43,584 nucleotides of DNA, from NCBI GenBank assembly GCA_023475265.1, contig JAMCWE010000254.1, positions 1 to 43,584 on the forward strand. The letters run 5' to 3'. The stretch comes from Bacteroidota bacterium. GTDB lineage: Bacteria; Bacteroidota; Ignavibacteria; Ignavibacteriales; Ignavibacteriaceae. The notes under the pieces are model-generated. The model did not search any database. It worked only from the letters and a program-made list of their open reading frames with translations, and was not told the origin of the DNA. Shown piece after piece: positions 17,285-24,368 of the stretch. The position numbers were made by a program, and so were the translations under genes. The first letter of the stretch is position 1. Each line of letters opens with the position of its first letter.

Positions 17285-18328
17285 ATGGCAACTAAAAAAG
17301 ATTTTCTAAAAGAAACTATTAAACATATCGATATAAAAGAGCACAATGTTGTTGAACTTGTTGATGCAATGGAGAAGATGGCTTTTTCTGCCCGCGATTT
17401 GAGCCGAGCAGCAAAGATTTATGAAATGATGCTTCGTGATAAAAACTGCGGCGTCATATTAACTTTAGCCGGAAGTCTGTTCAGCGCGGGATTAAAGAAA
17501 GTTGCTTACGATTTAGTAATGAATAATATGGTTGATGCAATTGTTTCTACCGGCGCTGTTATGGTGGATCAGGATTTCTTTGAAGCTCTCGGATTTAAAC
17601 ATTATAAAGGAACCCCATTCAGCGATGACAATTTGCTGAGAGACCTTCACATCGATAGAATTTACGATACTTATATCGACGAAGATGAATTAAGAATTTG
17701 CGATGAGACAACGGCAAAAATTTTCGACAGCCTTGAACCAAAGCCATATTCATCAAGAGAACTTCTTTGGGAATTTGGAAAATATTTAGATCAAAATGGC
17801 GGACCAAAAGTTGAGGATTCTGTAATTTATGCTGCTTACAAAAAGAATGTTCCGATTTTCGTACCGGCATTTTCAGATTGCTCTGCAGGCTTTGGATTTG
17901 TAATGCATCAAACTAAGCATCCGGATAAGCATGCTTCAATAGATTCAGCAAAAGATTTTCTTGAACTTACAAAAATAAAAATGCACTCCAAAGAAACTGG
18001 AATCTTTATGATAGGCGGCGGCGTTCCAAAAAACTTTACTCAGGATATTGTTGTAGCAGCAGATATTTTACAGGAAGATGCACCAATGCATAAATACGCC
18101 GTTCAAATTACAGTTGCTGATGTTCGCGATGGTGCATTATCTAGCTCAACTTTGAAGGAAGCAAGTTCCTGGGGAAAAGTTGAAACTACATTTGAACAGA
18201 TGGTTTATTCGGAAGCAACAATTGCAATGCCTTTAGTTGCTGGTTACGCATACAACAAAGGTGCTTGGAAAGAAAGAAAGCCGAGAGAATTTCAGAAGAT
18301 ATTTGCAGAAGAAAAAGCTGTTATATAA
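17285..18328 (+). CDS. Deoxyhypusine synthase-like protein
   Basis: A 347-residue protein of the DHS family: VILTLAGSLFSAGLKKV, IVSTGAVMVDQDFFEALG, VPIFVPAFSDCSAGFG, FMIGGGVPKNFTQD and, near the end, the lysine segment LKEASSWGKVE with the intermediate-forming Lys (K298) retained. Eukaryotic and archaeal DHS transfers the aminobutyl group of spermidine to eIF5A; bacteria lack that target, and bacterial relatives are thought to use other amine acceptors (homospermidine-type reactions). Substrate here is unknown. A strong AAGGAG box lies seven bases upstream, and a terminator follows the gene. Confidence 0.88.
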   Translation: MATKKDFLKETIKHIDIKEHNVVELVDAMEKMAFSARDLSRAAKIYEMMLRDKNCGVILTLAGSLFSAGLKKVAYDLVMNNMVDAIVSTGAVMVDQDFFEALGFKHYKGTPFSDDNLLRDLHIDRIYDTYIDEDELRICDETTAKIFDSLEPKPYSSRELLWEFGKYLDQNGGPKVEDSVIYAAYKKNVPIFVPAFSDCSAGFGFVMHQTKHPDKHASIDSAKDFLELTKIKMHSKETGIFMIGGGVPKNFTQDIVVAADILQEDAPMHKYAVQITVADVRDGALSSSTLKEASSWGKVETTFEQMVYSEATIAMPLVAGYAYNKGAWKERKPREFQKIFAEEKAVI

Positions 18329-18452: not shown

Positions 18453-20591
18453 ATGAAAATTATGCTGGGCAAAGAATTACTAAAAAAATATAACGATCCT
18501 AAAAATTTCTTTAACCGGGATCTTAGCTGGATCGAGTTCAACAGAAGAGTTTTGGAAGAAGCGCTCAACCCTGAACTGCCGCTTCTTGAAAAAGTAAAAT
18601 TCATTTCAATTTTTCATTCCAATCTTGATGAATTTTACATGATAAGAATTTCCGGATTGAAAGAACAAATTGCAGCTAACGTATCGGAACCAACTATCGA
18701 TGGATTAACGCCACAAGCTCAACTTCAAAAAATAGAAAAGCTTTTGCAGCCGATGCTCAAACAGGTAATGGATCTTTGGTTAGAAGAAGTTGTACCTGCT
18801 TTAAGAGAACAGAAAATTGATATTACTGATTACAATAAACTTCCTGAAAATGAAAAAAGTATTCTAACAGAATATTTTAAAAAAGAAATCTTTCCAATAC
18901 TTACACCGCTAGCTTTTGATCCGGGAAGGCCATTTCCGTATATATCTAATTTAAGTTTAAGCCTTGCGCTGCTTGTTAGAAAGCCTAATGGTGAAAATCA
19001 TTTCGCACGCGTAAAAGTACCTAATATTCTCCCTCGATTAATGCAGATAGATCAGATAATTAATCCGAATAAAAAAATTCAAACTAATGGATTATTCAGT
19101 GCAAGGTTTATTTGGCTGGGAGATCTTATAAAAGCCAACCTCCATTTATTATTTCCAGGCATGGAAGTTTTGGAAGCTCACAGATTTAGAATAACCCGCG
19201 ATACCGATATTGAATTGCAAGAAGATGAAGCCGATGATCTTCTCCGGGTAATTGAAGAGAACATTCGCCAAAGAAGATTCGGCACCGTTGTTCGTTTGGA
19301 AGTTGAAAAGCAAATGCCGGAATTTATGCTCGAAACTTTAATGGAAAATCTTCAAATAACAAGAGAAGATGTTCATGTTTTTGATGGACCGCTTGGATTA
19401 AGTGATATTATTTCTCTTTATGATTTACCTGTTCATCATTTAAAATTAAAACCATTTTATCCTGTAATTCCAAAAATATTCGATGAAGATGAAAATATTT
19501 TTTCTACAATTAGGAAGCAGGATATTTTACTTCATCATCCGTATCATTCTTTTACTCCGGTTATTGATTTCATTAAGCAAGCCGCAAAAGATCCCGATGT
19601 ACTTGCCATAAAACAAACGCTATACCGAGTCGGCACAGATTCGCCAATAATTAAATATTTAGTTGAAGCTGCTGAACGCGGGAAACAGGTTGCAGTGCTT
19701 GTAGAATTAAAAGCAAGATTCGATGAACAAAATAATATCTTCTGGGCAAGAGAGCTTGAGAAGGTTGGAGTGCATGTTGTCTATGGATTAGTTGGATTAA
19801 AAACACACGCAAAGATGACTTTGATTGTGCGCCGGGAATCCGATGGAGTAAAAAAATACGTCCATGTTTCTACAGGGAATTATAACGTTACTACCGCAAA
19901 GCTGTATACCGATCTTGGGTTGTTTACTTGCAATGAAGAAATCTGTTCAGATATTTCGGATATTTTTAATTATCTCACCGGTTATTCAAAACAAATAGAA
20001 TTTAAAAAACTTTTTGTTGCCCCAATAAACATGCGAGAAAAAATACTTTCATTGATAATGAGGGAAATTGAAAATATAAAATCAGGTAAAGAAGCCAGAA
20101 TTATTTTGAAGTTAAATGCTTTGGTCGACCCGATTATTATTAGCTGTTTATATGAGGCTTCAAATGCCGGCGTTAAAATAGATTTAATAGTACGAGGCAT
20201 TTGCTGCCTAGTACCAGATGTTCCGAATTTAAGCGAGAACATCAGAGTTATCAGCATTGTTGGAAGATTTTTAGAGCATAACAGAGTATTTTATTTTCTT
20301 AACAACGGTGAAGAAGATATTTATCTAAGCAGCGCAGATATGATGCAAAGAAATTTAGACCGCCGTGTTGAGATTGCTTTTCCCATCGAAGATCCAAAGC
20401 TTAAAAAGGAAATTCAAAAAACATTGCTAAATTTTTCAATGAAAGACAATGTAAAAGCTCGCAAATTGAATTCTGATATGAGCTATACTTTTTGTAAATG
20501 TAAAGATGGAGATATAAAAATTGATTCGCAGGATTGGCTGATTAACCACGCAATAAAATCAGTCGGGAAATTTGTAAAACCAAAACTTTAA
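18453..20591 (+). CDS. ppk1: Polyphosphate kinase 1
   Basis: A 712-residue PPK1 that makes inorganic polyphosphate from ATP. The N domain has NRDLSWIEFNRRVLEEA and HSNLDEFYMIRISGLKEQ; the head domain follows; the two catalytic PLD-like halves contain LKTHAKMTLIVRR (first His, equivalent to E. coli H435) and VHVSTGNYNVTTAKLYTDLG (equivalent to H454), ALVDPIIISCLYEA, and FLEHNRVFYFLNNGEE with YLSSADMMQRNLDRRVE. All are intact. No good Shine-Dalgarno precedes the gene; the ATG at 18453 is chosen, with 18462 also possible. Confidence 0.96.
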   Translation: MKIMLGKELLKKYNDPKNFFNRDLSWIEFNRRVLEEALNPELPLLEKVKFISIFHSNLDEFYMIRISGLKEQIAANVSEPTIDGLTPQAQLQKIEKLLQPMLKQVMDLWLEEVVPALREQKIDITDYNKLPENEKSILTEYFKKEIFPILTPLAFDPGRPFPYISNLSLSLALLVRKPNGENHFARVKVPNILPRLMQIDQIINPNKKIQTNGLFSARFIWLGDLIKANLHLLFPGMEVLEAHRFRITRDTDIELQEDEADDLLRVIEENIRQRRFGTVVRLEVEKQMPEFMLETLMENLQITREDVHVFDGPLGLSDIISLYDLPVHHLKLKPFYPVIPKIFDEDENIFSTIRKQDILLHHPYHSFTPVIDFIKQAAKDPDVLAIKQTLYRVGTDSPIIKYLVEAAERGKQVAVLVELKARFDEQNNIFWARELEKVGVHVVYGLVGLKTHAKMTLIVRRESDGVKKYVHVSTGNYNVTTAKLYTDLGLFTCNEEICSDISDIFNYLTGYSKQIEFKKLFVAPINMREKILSLIMREIENIKSGKEARIILKLNALVDPIIISCLYEASNAGVKIDLIVRGICCLVPDVPNLSENIRVISIVGRFLEHNRVFYFLNNGEEDIYLSSADMMQRNLDRRVEIAFPIEDPKLKKEIQKTLLNFSMKDNVKARKLNSDMSYTFCKCKDGDIKIDSQDWLINHAIKSVGKFVKPKL

Positions 20592-20686
20592 TCTTAAACA
20601 GAATTCTTTTAACTAAATTAGTTTTTTTATTAAAATAGAATTATTTACTTTTGAATAAATATTTTTAACAAGTTATAAGGTTCAAA

Positions 20687-20740
20687 ATGCGAGACTCTGA
20701 CGAGCCTGGCGCTAATATAGAAAATTCAAAAATACAATAG
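20687..20740 (+). CDS. Candidate acidic leader peptide (17 aa)
   Basis: Reads MRDSDEPGANIENSKIQ and stops at TAG. An AAGG box lies six bases before the ATG. The early run of acidic residues followed by Pro (D-S-D-E-P) is the type of sequence reported to destabilise translating ribosomes at low Mg2+, as in the enteric MgtL leader peptide. It ends 17 bases before the helix that covers the next Shine-Dalgarno. Too short for statistical support on its own. Confidence 0.45.
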   Translation: MRDSDEPGANIENSKIQ

Positions 20741-20811
20741 CCTTCTTTAGGGATTAACCACCTCTTTCTTCATTGGTTCATCTCCAAGGAGGGAAACTTT
20801 AGGAGGTGACA

Positions 20812-20868
20812 ATGATTCATATCTTCATCATTCAACCGACAATTATAATTAATAAGCAATTGCATTAG
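20812..20868 (+). CDS. Candidate second leader ORF (18 aa) with perfect Shine-Dalgarno
   Basis: Reads MIHIFIIQPTIIINKQLH and stops at TAG. It is preceded by AGGAGGTGA with two bases before the ATG, the strongest ribosome-binding site in the window, although the spacing is short. Very hydrophobic with a single Pro. Its ribosome-binding site can pair with CCACCTC upstream, so its translation is probably conditional. Confidence 0.45.
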   Translation: MIHIFIIQPTIIINKQLH

Positions 20869-20922
20869 CTCTATTTCTTTAATCTTATTAACTAACATTT
20901 AATCTAGAGCAAAGAGAATAAT

Positions 20923-23583
20923 ATGGTAAAATCCATCTTTTCCAAAATTTCGCCTTCAATATTTACTAAAGAAGCTAAAACACCGCATAGCGCTACTCTT
21001 GATGAGCAACGTTTGATGGAAATTTGTAAACTCTCACATCAGGAAACAATTACAAAATTAAATAGCCGCGACAATGGCATAACTTCAGAAGAAGCTGAAA
21101 CTAGATTGGAAGAATATGGCAGAAATGAATTAGCACACACAAAAAAAATTGGGATATTGCAGGATATATTTAACCGTTGTAAAAGTCCATTGGTTATACA
21201 GCTTCTTATAATTGCTATAATTTCCGGTTTAATGGATGATGTGAAATCAGCAATTGTTGTAGGAACTATGGTGCTGCTAAGTGTAGGCTTGTCTTTTATT
21301 TTAGATCGTAAATCGAGCAGCGCAGTTGAAGCATTAGGAAAAAGGGTTCAATCTCACACAGTTGCCTTGCGGGATGGAAAAGAAGTTGAAATTCCAATTT
21401 CGGATGTAGTTCCTGGTGATATAATTTTTTTACAAGCTGGTTCGATTATTCCGGCAGATATACGACTGCTTACTGTAAAAGATTTTTTTGTTAGTCAATC
21501 GGTTCTAACGGGTGAGTCTCTGCCGATTGAAAAAAAATCAGAACCGCAGCAGCTTAGCAATGGATTTGTTTTTGAACTTTCAAATGCTTGTTTTCAAGGA
21601 AGCAACGTACTAAGCGGTACTGCTCGTGGAATTGTTGTAAACACTGGTATTCATACTTATTTCGGTTCGATATCGGAACGACTCGTTGAGAGCAGGCCAA
21701 AAACAAGTTTTGATATTGGAATAAAATCTTTCACGTGGCTGATGATCAGGTTTATGATAGTGATGGTCTTTGCGGTTTTTATGATTATAGGCTTAACGAA
21801 AGGTAACTGGATTGAAGCTCTTTTATTTGGGCTATCTATTGCTGTTGGATTAACTCCTGAAATGCTGCCGATGATTGTTACGGTAAATCTTGCAAAAGGC
21901 GCTTTAACAATGTCGAAGAAAAAAGTTATTGTTAAGCAGCTTACTTCAATTCAAAATTTTGGCGCGATAGATATTTTATGCACAGATAAAACCGGAACGC
22001 TTACACAAGACCGCGTTGTTCTGGAAAAGCATGTAGATATAACCGGGAAAGAAAGCCGGGATGTTTTGCTTTACGCTTATTTAAATAGTTTTTATCAAAC
22101 CGGTTTAAGAAATCTTCTTGACCGTGCGGTTATTTCCCGCATCGATTTGAAAGTTGAAGCCAAATGCCAGCTCGTAGATGAATTGCCATTTGATTTTCAA
22201 CGCAGGCGAATGTCCGTAGCGGTAGAATATGAAGGAGACCACGTTTTAATTTGCAAAGGAGCCGTTGAAGAAATTTATTCAATTTGCAATTTCTATCAAA
22301 TCGATGATGAAGTTTATCCGTTAATTCAAATGATTCATGATGATTTATATGAAGATGTTGAAGATTTGAATAATGAAGGTTACAGAGTTCTTGCTATTGC
22401 TTACCGTGAGTTTCCAAAAACAAAAACCACTTTTACTGTTGCTGATGAATCAAATATGATTTTGTTAGGCTATATCGCATTCTTCGATCCTCCGAAAGAT
22501 TCTGCTGCTCAAGCGATTGCCAGCTTACAAAATGTTGGCGTCAAGGTTAAGATATTAACGGGCGATAATTCACTCGTTACAAAAAAAGTTTGCAATGATG
22601 TCGGATTACATATTGATAAAATTATTACGGGTAATGAGCTTATCAATTTATCCGATGAAGAATTTTTGAAAGCCGCTTTAGAAGCAAATGTTTTCGCAAA
22701 GCTGTCGCCGGTTCAAAAAGAAAGAGTAATTCATTCATTACGTCAAGCCGGGCACGTTGTCGGTTATATGGGCGATGGAATAAATGATTCTCCATCCTTG
22801 CGTGCCGCTGACGTTGGTATTTCTGTGGACAGCGCCGCCGATGTTGCTAAAGAAGCTGCCGACATTGTTTTACTTGAAAAAAGCCTTCTTGTTCTTGAAG
22901 ACGGAATAAAAGAAGGCAGAAAAGTTTTTGCAAATATAATTAAGTACATCCGGATGGGTGCGAGTTCAAATTTCGGAAATATGTTTAGCGTCATTGGTGC
23001 AAGTTACTTAATTCCATTTTTGCCAATGAAGCCGATACAAATTCTTTTAAATAATCTTCTATATGATTTTTCACAAACAGGTATACCAACTGACAATGTT
23101 GATTCTGAGCTTGTGGAAAAGCCCTTGAAGTGGAATATTAATAATATAAAAAGATTTATGATCTTCATCGGACCGATGAGTTCAATTTTTGATTATGCTA
23201 CATTTGGTTTGATGTGGTTTGTATTTAAGTCGAGTGATTTTCTAAATCCTCTAATTAGTTCCGGAGATAAAATTTATAAACAAGATTTGTTTCAAACAGG
23301 TTGGTTTGTTGAATCATTATTAACACAAACTTTAATTGTGCACATAATCAGAACTCGTAAAATTCCATTCTTCGGAAGTATGGCTTCGCTATCGATGACA
23401 TTAACTACATTATTTATTATGGTTGTCGGCGCATGGCTTCCGTATTCTCCTTTTGCTTCAACATTTGGCTTTGTGCCTTTGCCGCATATATATTGGCTGT
23501 GGATAGCAGGTTTTCTTGTTTTATACAGCATCCTAACTCATTTTGTAAAAACATGGTTCTTCAAAAAATATGGAGACAATTAA
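20923..23583 (+). CDS. mgtA: Magnesium-translocating P-type ATPase (MgtA/MgtB type)
   Basis: An 886-residue P3B-type ATPase. Visible motifs: TGES in the actuator domain (196-199), the TPEMLP intramembrane motif (311-316) typical of Mg2+ importers, CTDKTGTLTQ with the phosphorylated Asp (D355), LTGDN, and the hinge MGDGINDSPSLRAADVG. About ten membrane segments fit the family, and the C-terminal half has NLLYDFSQTGIPTDNVD. It imports Mg2+ across the inner membrane using ATP. The gene is preceded by an unusual leader and followed two bases later by a PTS-IIA-like gene. Confidence 0.95.
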   Translation: MVKSIFSKISPSIFTKEAKTPHSATLDEQRLMEICKLSHQETITKLNSRDNGITSEEAETRLEEYGRNELAHTKKIGILQDIFNRCKSPLVIQLLIIAIISGLMDDVKSAIVVGTMVLLSVGLSFILDRKSSSAVEALGKRVQSHTVALRDGKEVEIPISDVVPGDIIFLQAGSIIPADIRLLTVKDFFVSQSVLTGESLPIEKKSEPQQLSNGFVFELSNACFQGSNVLSGTARGIVVNTGIHTYFGSISERLVESRPKTSFDIGIKSFTWLMIRFMIVMVFAVFMIIGLTKGNWIEALLFGLSIAVGLTPEMLPMIVTVNLAKGALTMSKKKVIVKQLTSIQNFGAIDILCTDKTGTLTQDRVVLEKHVDITGKESRDVLLYAYLNSFYQTGLRNLLDRAVISRIDLKVEAKCQLVDELPFDFQRRRMSVAVEYEGDHVLICKGAVEEIYSICNFYQIDDEVYPLIQMIHDDLYEDVEDLNNEGYRVLAIAYREFPKTKTTFTVADESNMILLGYIAFFDPPKDSAAQAIASLQNVGVKVKILTGDNSLVTKKVCNDVGLHIDKIITGNELINLSDEEFLKAALEANVFAKLSPVQKERVIHSLRQAGHVVGYMGDGINDSPSLRAADVGISVDSAADVAKEAADIVLLEKSLLVLEDGIKEGRKVFANIIKYIRMGASSNFGNMFSVIGASYLIPFLPMKPIQILLNNLLYDFSQTGIPTDNVDSELVEKPLKWNINNIKRFMIFIGPMSSIFDYATFGLMWFVFKSSDFLNPLISSGDKIYKQDLFQTGWFVESLLTQTLIVHIIRTRKIPFFGSMASLSMTLTTLFIMVVGAWLPYSPFASTFGFVPLPHIYWLWIAGFLVLYSILTHFVKTWFFKKYGDN

Positions 23584-23585
23584 TT

Positions 23586-24368
23586 ATGGATAGTTTATTA
23601 GATGCCTTGCAAGAAGGCCGTTTAATCGAATTACCGGATAATGATAAACAAGATTCGCTTCAATTGCTCGCTCATATTATTGAGGCTATTCCATCCGTAC
23701 CAACCGATACTGATGTTGCAGGACTGGTTTTAAAAAGAGAAGAAACTTATAATACTTCTTTGGGAAAAGGATTTGCTGTTCCGCATGCCAGGGCATCTTT
23801 CGACGGCGATCTTTATTGTGCGGTTGGCTGGAGCCCTTCCGGAATTGCTTACGGTGCACCAGACGGTAATCTTGTGCACATTGTAATTATGTTTTTAGTT
23901 CCCGATAATCAGAGGAATTATTATCTAAAAGAAGTTTCGAATATTGCCAAAGCATTAAATGAACTTCATAATGAGGATACATTAAAAACAGCTGAGGATT
24001 TAAACACCGTTCGTAATTATTTACTTGATCTTGTCACCTCGGCAAAAAGTATTGTCGGCCCGGAAGCACGGGCCCGGATGATTCAGCTTGAAGTTAGAGA
24101 AAGCATTCCGCAGCTCGATTTAAAAGATATTGCAAATTTAGTCATTGAACCTTTATCAATAATCATATCTTCAAACATAAAGCCGATAACTTTAAGTCAG
24201 AATAAAGAGCTGATTGATGTTCTAGACGGCTCGCAGAATTTGACTGAGTTCCTGAACAACAATAATAAATTTTTTGATTACTCCGGCTGGAGAGTATTAA
24301 AAAGAAATTCATCAAATTACCAGGGCGGAAGAGTAATGTTCGATTGCCTTGCTATCAAGATTAAATAA
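23586..24368 (+). CDS. PTS-IIA (fructose/nitrogen type) domain protein with extra C-terminal domain
   Basis: A 260-residue protein. Residues 1-150 resemble a fructose/Ntr-type EIIA: REETYNTSLGKGFAVPHARA with the phosphorylatable His67, then VHIVIMFLVPDNQRNYYLKEVSNIAKAL. The remaining ~110 residues (LDLKDIANLVIEPLSIIISS onwards) form an additional domain I do not recognise. The start is the ATG two bases after the ATPase stop (23581-23583); an upstream extension of the frame lies inside the ATPase gene. No sugar permease, HPr or EI is nearby, so a regulatory role linked to ion transport, like EIIA-Ntr with K+ systems, is a reasonable inference. Confidence 0.85.
   Translation: MDSLLDALQEGRLIELPDNDKQDSLQLLAHIIEAIPSVPTDTDVAGLVLKREETYNTSLGKGFAVPHARASFDGDLYCAVGWSPSGIAYGAPDGNLVHIVIMFLVPDNQRNYYLKEVSNIAKALNELHNEDTLKTAEDLNTVRNYLLDLVTSAKSIVGPEARARMIQLEVRESIPQLDLKDIANLVIEPLSIIISSNIKPITLSQNKELIDVLDGSQNLTEFLNNNNKFFDYSGWRVLKRNSSNYQGGRVMFDCLAIKIK

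Follow-up and report, generated by a model that had tools for sequence, protein, structure and literature searches.

A conserved candidate leader-peptide attenuator upstream of the Mg2+ transporter genes mgtA and mgtE in Ignavibacteria

Introduction

The question raised by this locus is whether the gap between the polyphosphate kinase 1 gene (ppk1) and mgtA holds a leader that controls the transporter gene and, if it does, how such a leader would work and what it would sense. To our knowledge, destabilization of the ribosome by an acidic nascent peptide is known as a Mg2+ sensor only from enteric bacteria, in the form of mgtL. In E. coli at low Mg2+, ribosome dissociation is reported to be favoured at the EPDP motif of MgtL, after which mgtA is expressed, and acidic residues that are adjacent or one apart are reported to cause pausing early in synthesis (PMC11282234). 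The window analysed here is the whole 43,584-nt stretch of DNA in which ppk1 is the 5′ neighbour of mgtA, and the gap between the two genes contains, in this order, a short open reading frame (ORF1), a pyrimidine-rich stretch, the ribosome-binding sequence AGGAGGTGA (20801-20809) and a second short frame (ORF2). The first-pass annotation had read this arrangement as an MgtL-like leader with a different sequence and an added second ORF, and the reading is upheld by conservation of ORF1 at the codon level beside both MgtA and the non-homologous MgtE.

Results and Discussion

Organization of the locus

The features of the leader, which is single copy in its own genome, are collected in Table 1. 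Both short ORFs described earlier were found as described, with 17 and 18 codons, ORF1 running from ATG to TAG and ORF2, also closed by TAG, following AGGAGGTGA; the ribosome-binding site ahead of the ATPase start is indeed weak (AGAG). Since Shine-Dalgarno-like sites are scarce in the window, preceding 4 of its 16 long ORFs when a simple pattern and mechanically called starts are used, the perfect AGGAGGTGA stands out.

Table 1. Positions of the leader features and mgtA in the window.
Feature	Position	Strand	Evidence
Shine-Dalgarno-like AAGG of ORF1	20677..20680	+	sequence, alignments
ORF1, leader peptide MRDSDEPGANIENSKIQ (MRDSDEPGAN...)	20687..20740	+	conservation in relatives, codon test
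ORF1 codons 3-9, DSDEPGA, proposed ribosome-destabilizing stretch	20693..20713	+	codon test, literature
Helix A 5′ arm, directly after the ORF1 stop	20741..20760	+	helix A −21.9 kcal/mol here; z < −1.5 in 22/22 leaders
Helix B strand masking the ORF2 start region	20770..20789	+	helix B −19.7 kcal/mol in the window
Helix A 3′ arm, partner of 20741-20760 and largely shared with helix B	20774..20793	+	pairing tests
ORF2 translation start region (AGGAGGTGA + ATG), other helix B strand	20797..20815	+	pairing, sequence
ORF2, MIHIFIIQPTIIINKQLH, proposed relay ORF	20812..20868	+	sequence; ends 54 nt before mgtA
mgtA, Mg2+-translocating P-type ATPase, 886 aa	20923..23583	+	TIGR01524 equivalog, 1088.6 bits (cut-off 610.75)

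A known riboswitch was rejected because nothing in Rfam matched: no family reached its gathering score anywhere in the window, the M-box (RF00380) included, and at E ≤ 10 the region 20400-21300 gave only two weak matches, to unrelated families. Similarity to distant plasmid DNA was also set aside, as none of the 13 records covered 80% or more of the query and the five listed have E values of about 10.

Two neighbouring genes are worth recording. A protein with a PTS EIIA type 2 domain (PF00359) is encoded directly 3′ of mgtA at 23586-24368, and co-transcription is possible. At 17285-18328 lies a gene of the deoxyhypusine-synthase family, scored as 1,9-bis(guanidino)-5-aza-nonane synthase, which would place an unusual polyamine-like chemistry near the Mg2+ locus.

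Conservation of the ORF1 peptide

The conserved part of ORF1 is its acidic-Pro N-terminus. In 25 leaders (L152 was excluded for its degenerate ORF1, and L166-L169 were found afterwards), codons 3-9 differ by 669 synonymous and 188 non-synonymous changes and codons 10-15 by 103 synonymous and 1516 non-synonymous changes, these being pairwise counts over related sequences and not independent events. At the residue level S4 is present in all 25 leaders, D3, D5, E6, P7 and G8 are each present in 24, and A9 in 22. By this codon test ORF1 behaves as a coding sequence, and its conservation exceeds chance. Beside MgtA the N-terminus varies as MTGSDEPGAC, MNDSDDPGAE, MSDSDESGPD and MQDSDEPGAF, with MLDTDELSPK also found there (MgtA identified by tblastn); the natural variants DSDEP, GSDEP, DSDDP, DSDES, DSKEP and DTDELSP form a set in which the Mg2+ response of different acidic-Pro patterns could be compared. 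Ahead of the start, most relatives carry AAGG, GAGG or TAGG as a Shine-Dalgarno-like site, with none in L102.

Codons 7-8 (20705-20710) are nearly fixed as nucleotides as well, with CCT in 23/25 and GGC in 24/25 leaders, while across 16 ORFs of the window CCT accounts for 30% of Pro and GGC for 25% of Gly codons. A small hairpin within ORF1 or another RNA contact may explain the fixation of CCTGGC. At the other end of the peptide, ORF1 often finishes in Pro-stop (NLP, IFP, IQP, VMP) or in PRK- or PWK-stop, and slow termination at such ends could lengthen occupancy of the 5′ arm.

Two mutually exclusive helices

The first-pass annotation had also proposed a helix between CCACCTC (20758-20764) and GAGGTG (20803-20808) that would hide the ORF2 ribosome-binding site. 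Both strings are where it placed them, but the helix is not conserved: a six-pair match, with G-U allowed, occurs in only 5 of 30 leaders, and we rejected it as a conserved element. Pairing of the loop segment with the Shine-Dalgarno sequence is no better than with shuffled loops (mean z −0.03, species-swap p 0.76), falling below z −1.5 in 3/30 leaders, the window and L003 included.

Two other pairings, helices A and B, are conserved, and because they have nucleotides in common they are mutually exclusive. In 22 mgtA leaders, a set picked by the ORF1 pattern in which the segments were placed using the window sequence as a guide, helix A has a mean energy of −14.6 kcal/mol, compared with −10.7 when the arms are swapped between species and −6.0 when they are shuffled; the corresponding values for helix B are −16.0, −13.0 and −6.6. 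Helix B falls below z −1.5 in 21/22 of these leaders, one fewer than helix A, and the swap p is <1/20000 for each helix, as against 0.75 for a control pairing of the 5′ arm with the start region. Reduced to 13 non-redundant leaders, the native A and B arms beat all 50000 random pairings and the control did not. Eight later leaders (five of mgtE and three of mgtA, with L149, L152 and L167 from a single genus) gave mean z values of −4.6 for A and −4.7 for B, with arms chosen by best pairing in the same sequence, a choice that favours the native state in the swap test. When segments were set by their distance from the next start rather than chosen by energy, species swaps gave p 0.0013 (A), 0.0009 (B) and 0.49 (control) for these eight, and over all 30 leaders 0 of 40000 permutations were as good as native A or B (control p 0.97). 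A search of the whole region for partners of the start gave z ≤ −2.09 in 25 of 26 leaders; L100 shows no clear helix B (z 0.13).

The ORF1 stop lies at the 5′ arm in 30/30 leaders, from −6 to +17 nt from the arm start in the 22 and from −3 to +14 nt in the eight, and in each of the 30 the next start follows the ORF1 ATG at a distance of 117 to 130 nt. Helix B is computed to cover the Shine-Dalgarno sequence and start of the next ORF. By computation, then, the leader would adopt two mutually exclusive conformations that are tied to ORF1.

Alignment-based methods gave a mixed picture. RNAalifold returned helix B as the consensus on one alignment of the 22 leaders and neither helix on another alignment (A1) of the same leaders, and no further conserved fold was seen on the leader alignments. 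Column covariation of helix B was not above shuffles: on the MAFFT alignment four pairs changed on both sides, and 104 of 500 shuffles scored as high. On that alignment 81% of cells in helix B pair, compared with 36-52% in slid registers. Because the register shifts between species, we judged pairing within each sequence against shuffled arms and arms swapped between species.

In equilibrium folding the start region is mostly paired, with a mean of 0.77 in the free RNA and 0.83 when the region of the ORF1 stop is masked as by a ribosome, and the open-start and masked-arm states have, on average, nearly equal free energies (0.5 kcal/mol apart in the mean, −7.1 to 8.6 kcal/mol across the 30 leaders). 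Equilibrium folding alone shows no switch, and the model therefore needs an order of folding during transcription; when the transcript stops short of the start region, upstream pairing of the 3′ arm has a mean probability of 0.57.

Distribution of the leader

ORF1 is kept upstream of MgtA in several families of Ignavibacteria, the class being judged from named relatives. Of 391 genomes of the class, 11 carry the motif ATGCSNGAYTCNGAYGARCCNGG, every time upstream of MgtA, and its reversed control had no match in the table of the same search of 391 genomes. A search of a contig database with the ORF1 pattern gave 22 matches, comprising 14 with MgtA downstream, two leaders without a testable gene and six unrelated sequences. 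The conserved leader is present in L059 and L060, where the sequence ends before the mgtA position. Matches L044, L046, L055, L058, L062 and L064 and the viral L065 were discarded as chance occurrences of the pattern, having no MgtA downstream and lying mostly inside longer frames. Among the named records with the leader are Ignavibacteriales and Melioribacter MAGs and Stygiobacter electus (Ignavibacteriota, Ignavibacteria, Ignavibacteriales, Melioribacteraceae); G306, which belongs to the same order as the window, has a leader identical to that of S. electus.

A covariance model (R1) was built from the 22 mgtA leaders; it is sequence-heavy, with 7 base pairs. With strict filters, and in class and phylum sets that are samples, so that absence elsewhere is not proven, R1 matched 20/391 genomes of the class at E ≤ 0.05 (17 of these at E ≤ 1.2e-7) and 7/395 genomes of the phylum, where only two weak matches fell outside the class. 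In the order it matched 26/164 genomes at E ≤ 0.02, four times before mgtE and otherwise before mgtA. The 17 strong class matches likewise precede MgtA or MgtE genes; the exception is G012, whose contig ends near the mgtA start. Weak matches in G198, G393 and, on the reverse strand, G394 from the class search and in G440 and G598 from the phylum search were dropped; the one in G440 precedes an EF-G-like gene (by eye).

R1 matched in 14 of the 72 class genomes with an MgtA match. Three MgtA orthologues of the same subclade that are close to the window's (G044, G143 and G309) have no DSDEP-like ORF1 upstream, and most of the other anchored orthologues share about 50% identity or less with the MgtA of the window. 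Among the 39 upstream regions fetched, 20 had no tblastn MgtA anchor, and their genomes were covered by the R1 search alone. In L098 (G309), about 276 nt before mgtA, a GTG-initiated ORF (MEDSVGDVSSS...) follows AGGAG and is perhaps a different acidic leader.

The same leader ahead of mgtE

Four genomes, and a fifth as a weak case, carry this leader immediately in front of a second copy of MgtE, a Mg2+ channel unrelated to MgtA. R1 found leader-bearing mgtE genes in G295, G371, G227 and, weakly, G338, none of them among the 72 genomes with an MgtA match, and G720 provided a further one. The TIGR00400 scores (cut-off 232.75) are 383.8, 401.2, 387 and 396 bits for G295, G371, G227 and G338, respectively. 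The G338 match (E 0.032) has an ORF1 of MKESSSYINL... without DSDEP and was retained because it precedes mgtE and carries both helices.

Each of these five genomes has two MgtE matches, and the other copy (L184-L188) has neither such an ORF1 nor helix B; one copy with the leader and one without make an internal control. A further 37 MgtE start regions, selected from among the MgtE matches, were examined, and in this set only the second copy of G048 (L175) has an ORF1-like sequence, MHSQDEPGARV..., together with a weak helix B (z −1.6), and the remaining 36 serve as controls. The lowest z for a helix-B-type pairing in the 37 is −2.3, at an alternative start. In the mgtE leaders the start at the position of ORF2 is that of mgtE itself, and it is this start that helix B masks. 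At E ≤ 1e-60 MgtE had no match in 13 of 13 genomes of the window's genus, where MgtA may consequently be the main importer.

ORF2 as a relay

ORF2 stands in a variable relation to mgtA. In 25 mgtA leaders (counting L012 and L102, which lack an ATG where the ORF2 start aligns) it overlaps the mgtA start in 10 (TAATG, TGATG, ATGA or longer), ends within 20 nt in four and lies farther away in 11. Its ribosome-binding site is kept in most relatives, and coding constraint is not clear, with 21 synonymous and 169 non-synonymous differences in nine members of the genus. ORF2 looks like a relayed target and not a second sensor, and is best seen as a relay that would be coupled by translation to mgtA in some species and perhaps act through Rho in others. 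A gene for Rho is present (699 bits, cut-off 509.45), and a search for the EttA family found ABC-F proteins, none of which scored above the curated cut-off. In one relative (L006, G005) the gap between ORF2 and mgtA carries TCACCTTATGCGTAAGGTGA followed by a T-rich run, which by eye resembles an intrinsic terminator.

Proposed mechanism and alternatives

The peptide is conserved, the two helices exclude one another, and the leader is linked to two unrelated Mg2+ transporters, all as computed here. Taken as comparative sequence evidence, this strongly supports the view that Mg2+ transporters of Ignavibacteria are under a conserved leader-peptide attenuator. We think it probable that this attenuator is mainly translational, with failure to translate ORF1 at low Mg2+ opening the next start and the effect being relayed to mgtA. 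Mg2+ as the signal, drop-off of the ribosome, the direction of the switch and the relay to mgtA are what we infer, and Mg2+ sensing by ribosome destabilization is the most likely reading.

The proposed sequence of events is as follows. The ORF1 N-terminus, M-x-D-S-D-E-P-G-A, would be difficult for ribosomes to translate under low Mg2+. With Mg2+ high, the ribosome would reach the ORF1 stop and cover the 5′ arm of hairpin A, and the freed 3′ arm would pair with the Shine-Dalgarno sequence and start of the next ORF (helix B), closing it. At low Mg2+ the ribosome would drop off or stall at DSDEP, hairpin A would form first on the growing RNA and use up the 3′ arm, and the next ORF would be translated. 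In mgtE leaders the ORF opened would be mgtE, and in mgtA leaders the short relay ORF2, whose translation could pass to mgtA by coupling (many species have the ORF2 stop overlapping the mgtA start) or by keeping Rho off the RNA.

Rho could have a larger part than this. If translation of ORF1 and ORF2 set the access of Rho to the transcript, as reported for enteric mgtA and corA, the leader would be transcriptional and start masking secondary. The Rho gene noted above, the long gap between ORF2 and mgtA in the window species and a mycobacterial M-box reported to control a small ORF together with Rho termination (PMC12810186) would all suit this, but in mgtE leaders the start covered by helix B is the transporter's own, and in 10 of the 25 mgtA leaders ORF2 and the mgtA start overlap, and we regard a primarily transcriptional leader as unlikely.

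It is also rather unlikely that the same attenuator answers another signal, such as polyamines, prolyl-tRNA supply, another divalent metal or general translation stress, by stalling and not by drop-off. Its conserved stretch does extend into Gly-Ala past the acidic-Pro run, much like that of an arrest peptide, Pro, PRK or PWK precedes the stop in several ORF1s, and Salmonella mgtP is reported to answer proline limitation (PMC3641672). Against this, the genes controlled would be those of two unrelated Mg2+ transporters, and the motif belongs with the acidic ones reported to destabilize ribosomes (PMC11282234).

A metal-binding riboswitch with ORF1 as an incidental passenger strikes us as highly improbable; two exclusive conformations near a Mg2+ transporter and the strong nucleotide conservation of CCTGGC would fit it, but the lack of any Rfam match, M-box included, a conserved block that is kept as codons with third positions mostly free, and the lack of any other conserved fold on the alignments speak against it. 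That ORF1 and the pairings arose by chance in an AT-rich intergenic region, as the folding of the window alone, only slightly better than shuffles (z −1.41), might suggest, is already refuted by the conservation of ORF1 codons, the R1 matches, the helix swap tests and the position of the ORF1 stop.

Comparison with known systems

In erm-type attenuators, translation of a leader ORF decides which of two hairpins forms, one of the pair sequestering a downstream ribosome-binding site, and the trigger is stalling in response to an antibiotic. The leader described here would share the choice of hairpin by translation of a leader ORF, and differs in having an acidic peptide and a target that moves Mg2+.

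A close parallel in logic is mgtL/mgtA of Salmonella and E. coli, which likewise has acidic and Pro codons early in a short ORF before mgtA and two exclusive RNA states, and in which failed elongation at low Mg2+ is reported to switch mgtA on (PMC11282234, PMC11552253). As a conserved acidic/Pro short ORF upstream of a Mg2+ transporter gene, ORF1 would belong to the MgtL kind, and by analogy its D3-S-D5-E6-P7 is of the acidic pausing kind described for E. coli. No homology to the enteric leader was apparent in peptide or RNA: the peptide is unrelated to E. coli MgtL when compared by eye, and R1 had no match in the E. coli mgtA region (L174) at E ≤ 10. Unlike in mgtL, the 3′ arm here would mask a ribosome-binding site, a second ORF intervenes, and mgtE is served as well.

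The use of short-ORF logic on a second, unrelated Mg2+ transporter recalls enteric corL/corA, and for both mgtL and corL, transporter expression is reported to fall as translation of the leader ORF rises, and two mutually exclusive structures are described (PMC11552253). CorL is reported there to have a single proline and Rho termination as its output, whereas here one family of peptide and hairpin serves both mgtA and mgtE. Two short ORFs also occur in the leader of the Salmonella Mg2+ operon mgtCBR, where mgtM and mgtP are both reported to be sensors, of ATP and proline (PMC3641672); here, by contrast, ORF2 has a masked start and a peptide without clear conservation. The mycobacterial M-box is an RNA switch reported to govern a small ORF before a Mg2+-responsive operon (PMC12810186), but it is a metal-sensing RNA, of which none was found here, and the sensor we propose is a translated ORF.

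A search of the open-access literature found nothing on such a leader in Ignavibacteria or on leader peptides of mgtE. On balance we lean towards a separately evolved sensor in Ignavibacteria, in which the ribosome would read Mg2+ through DSDEPGA and one module would be placed on both MgtA and MgtE, with ORF2 as the relay for mgtA. If this is true, an unrelated leader in another phylum, serving two Mg2+ transporters, would mean that the principle known from mgtL arises repeatedly, and would provide a compact and testable translational version of it.
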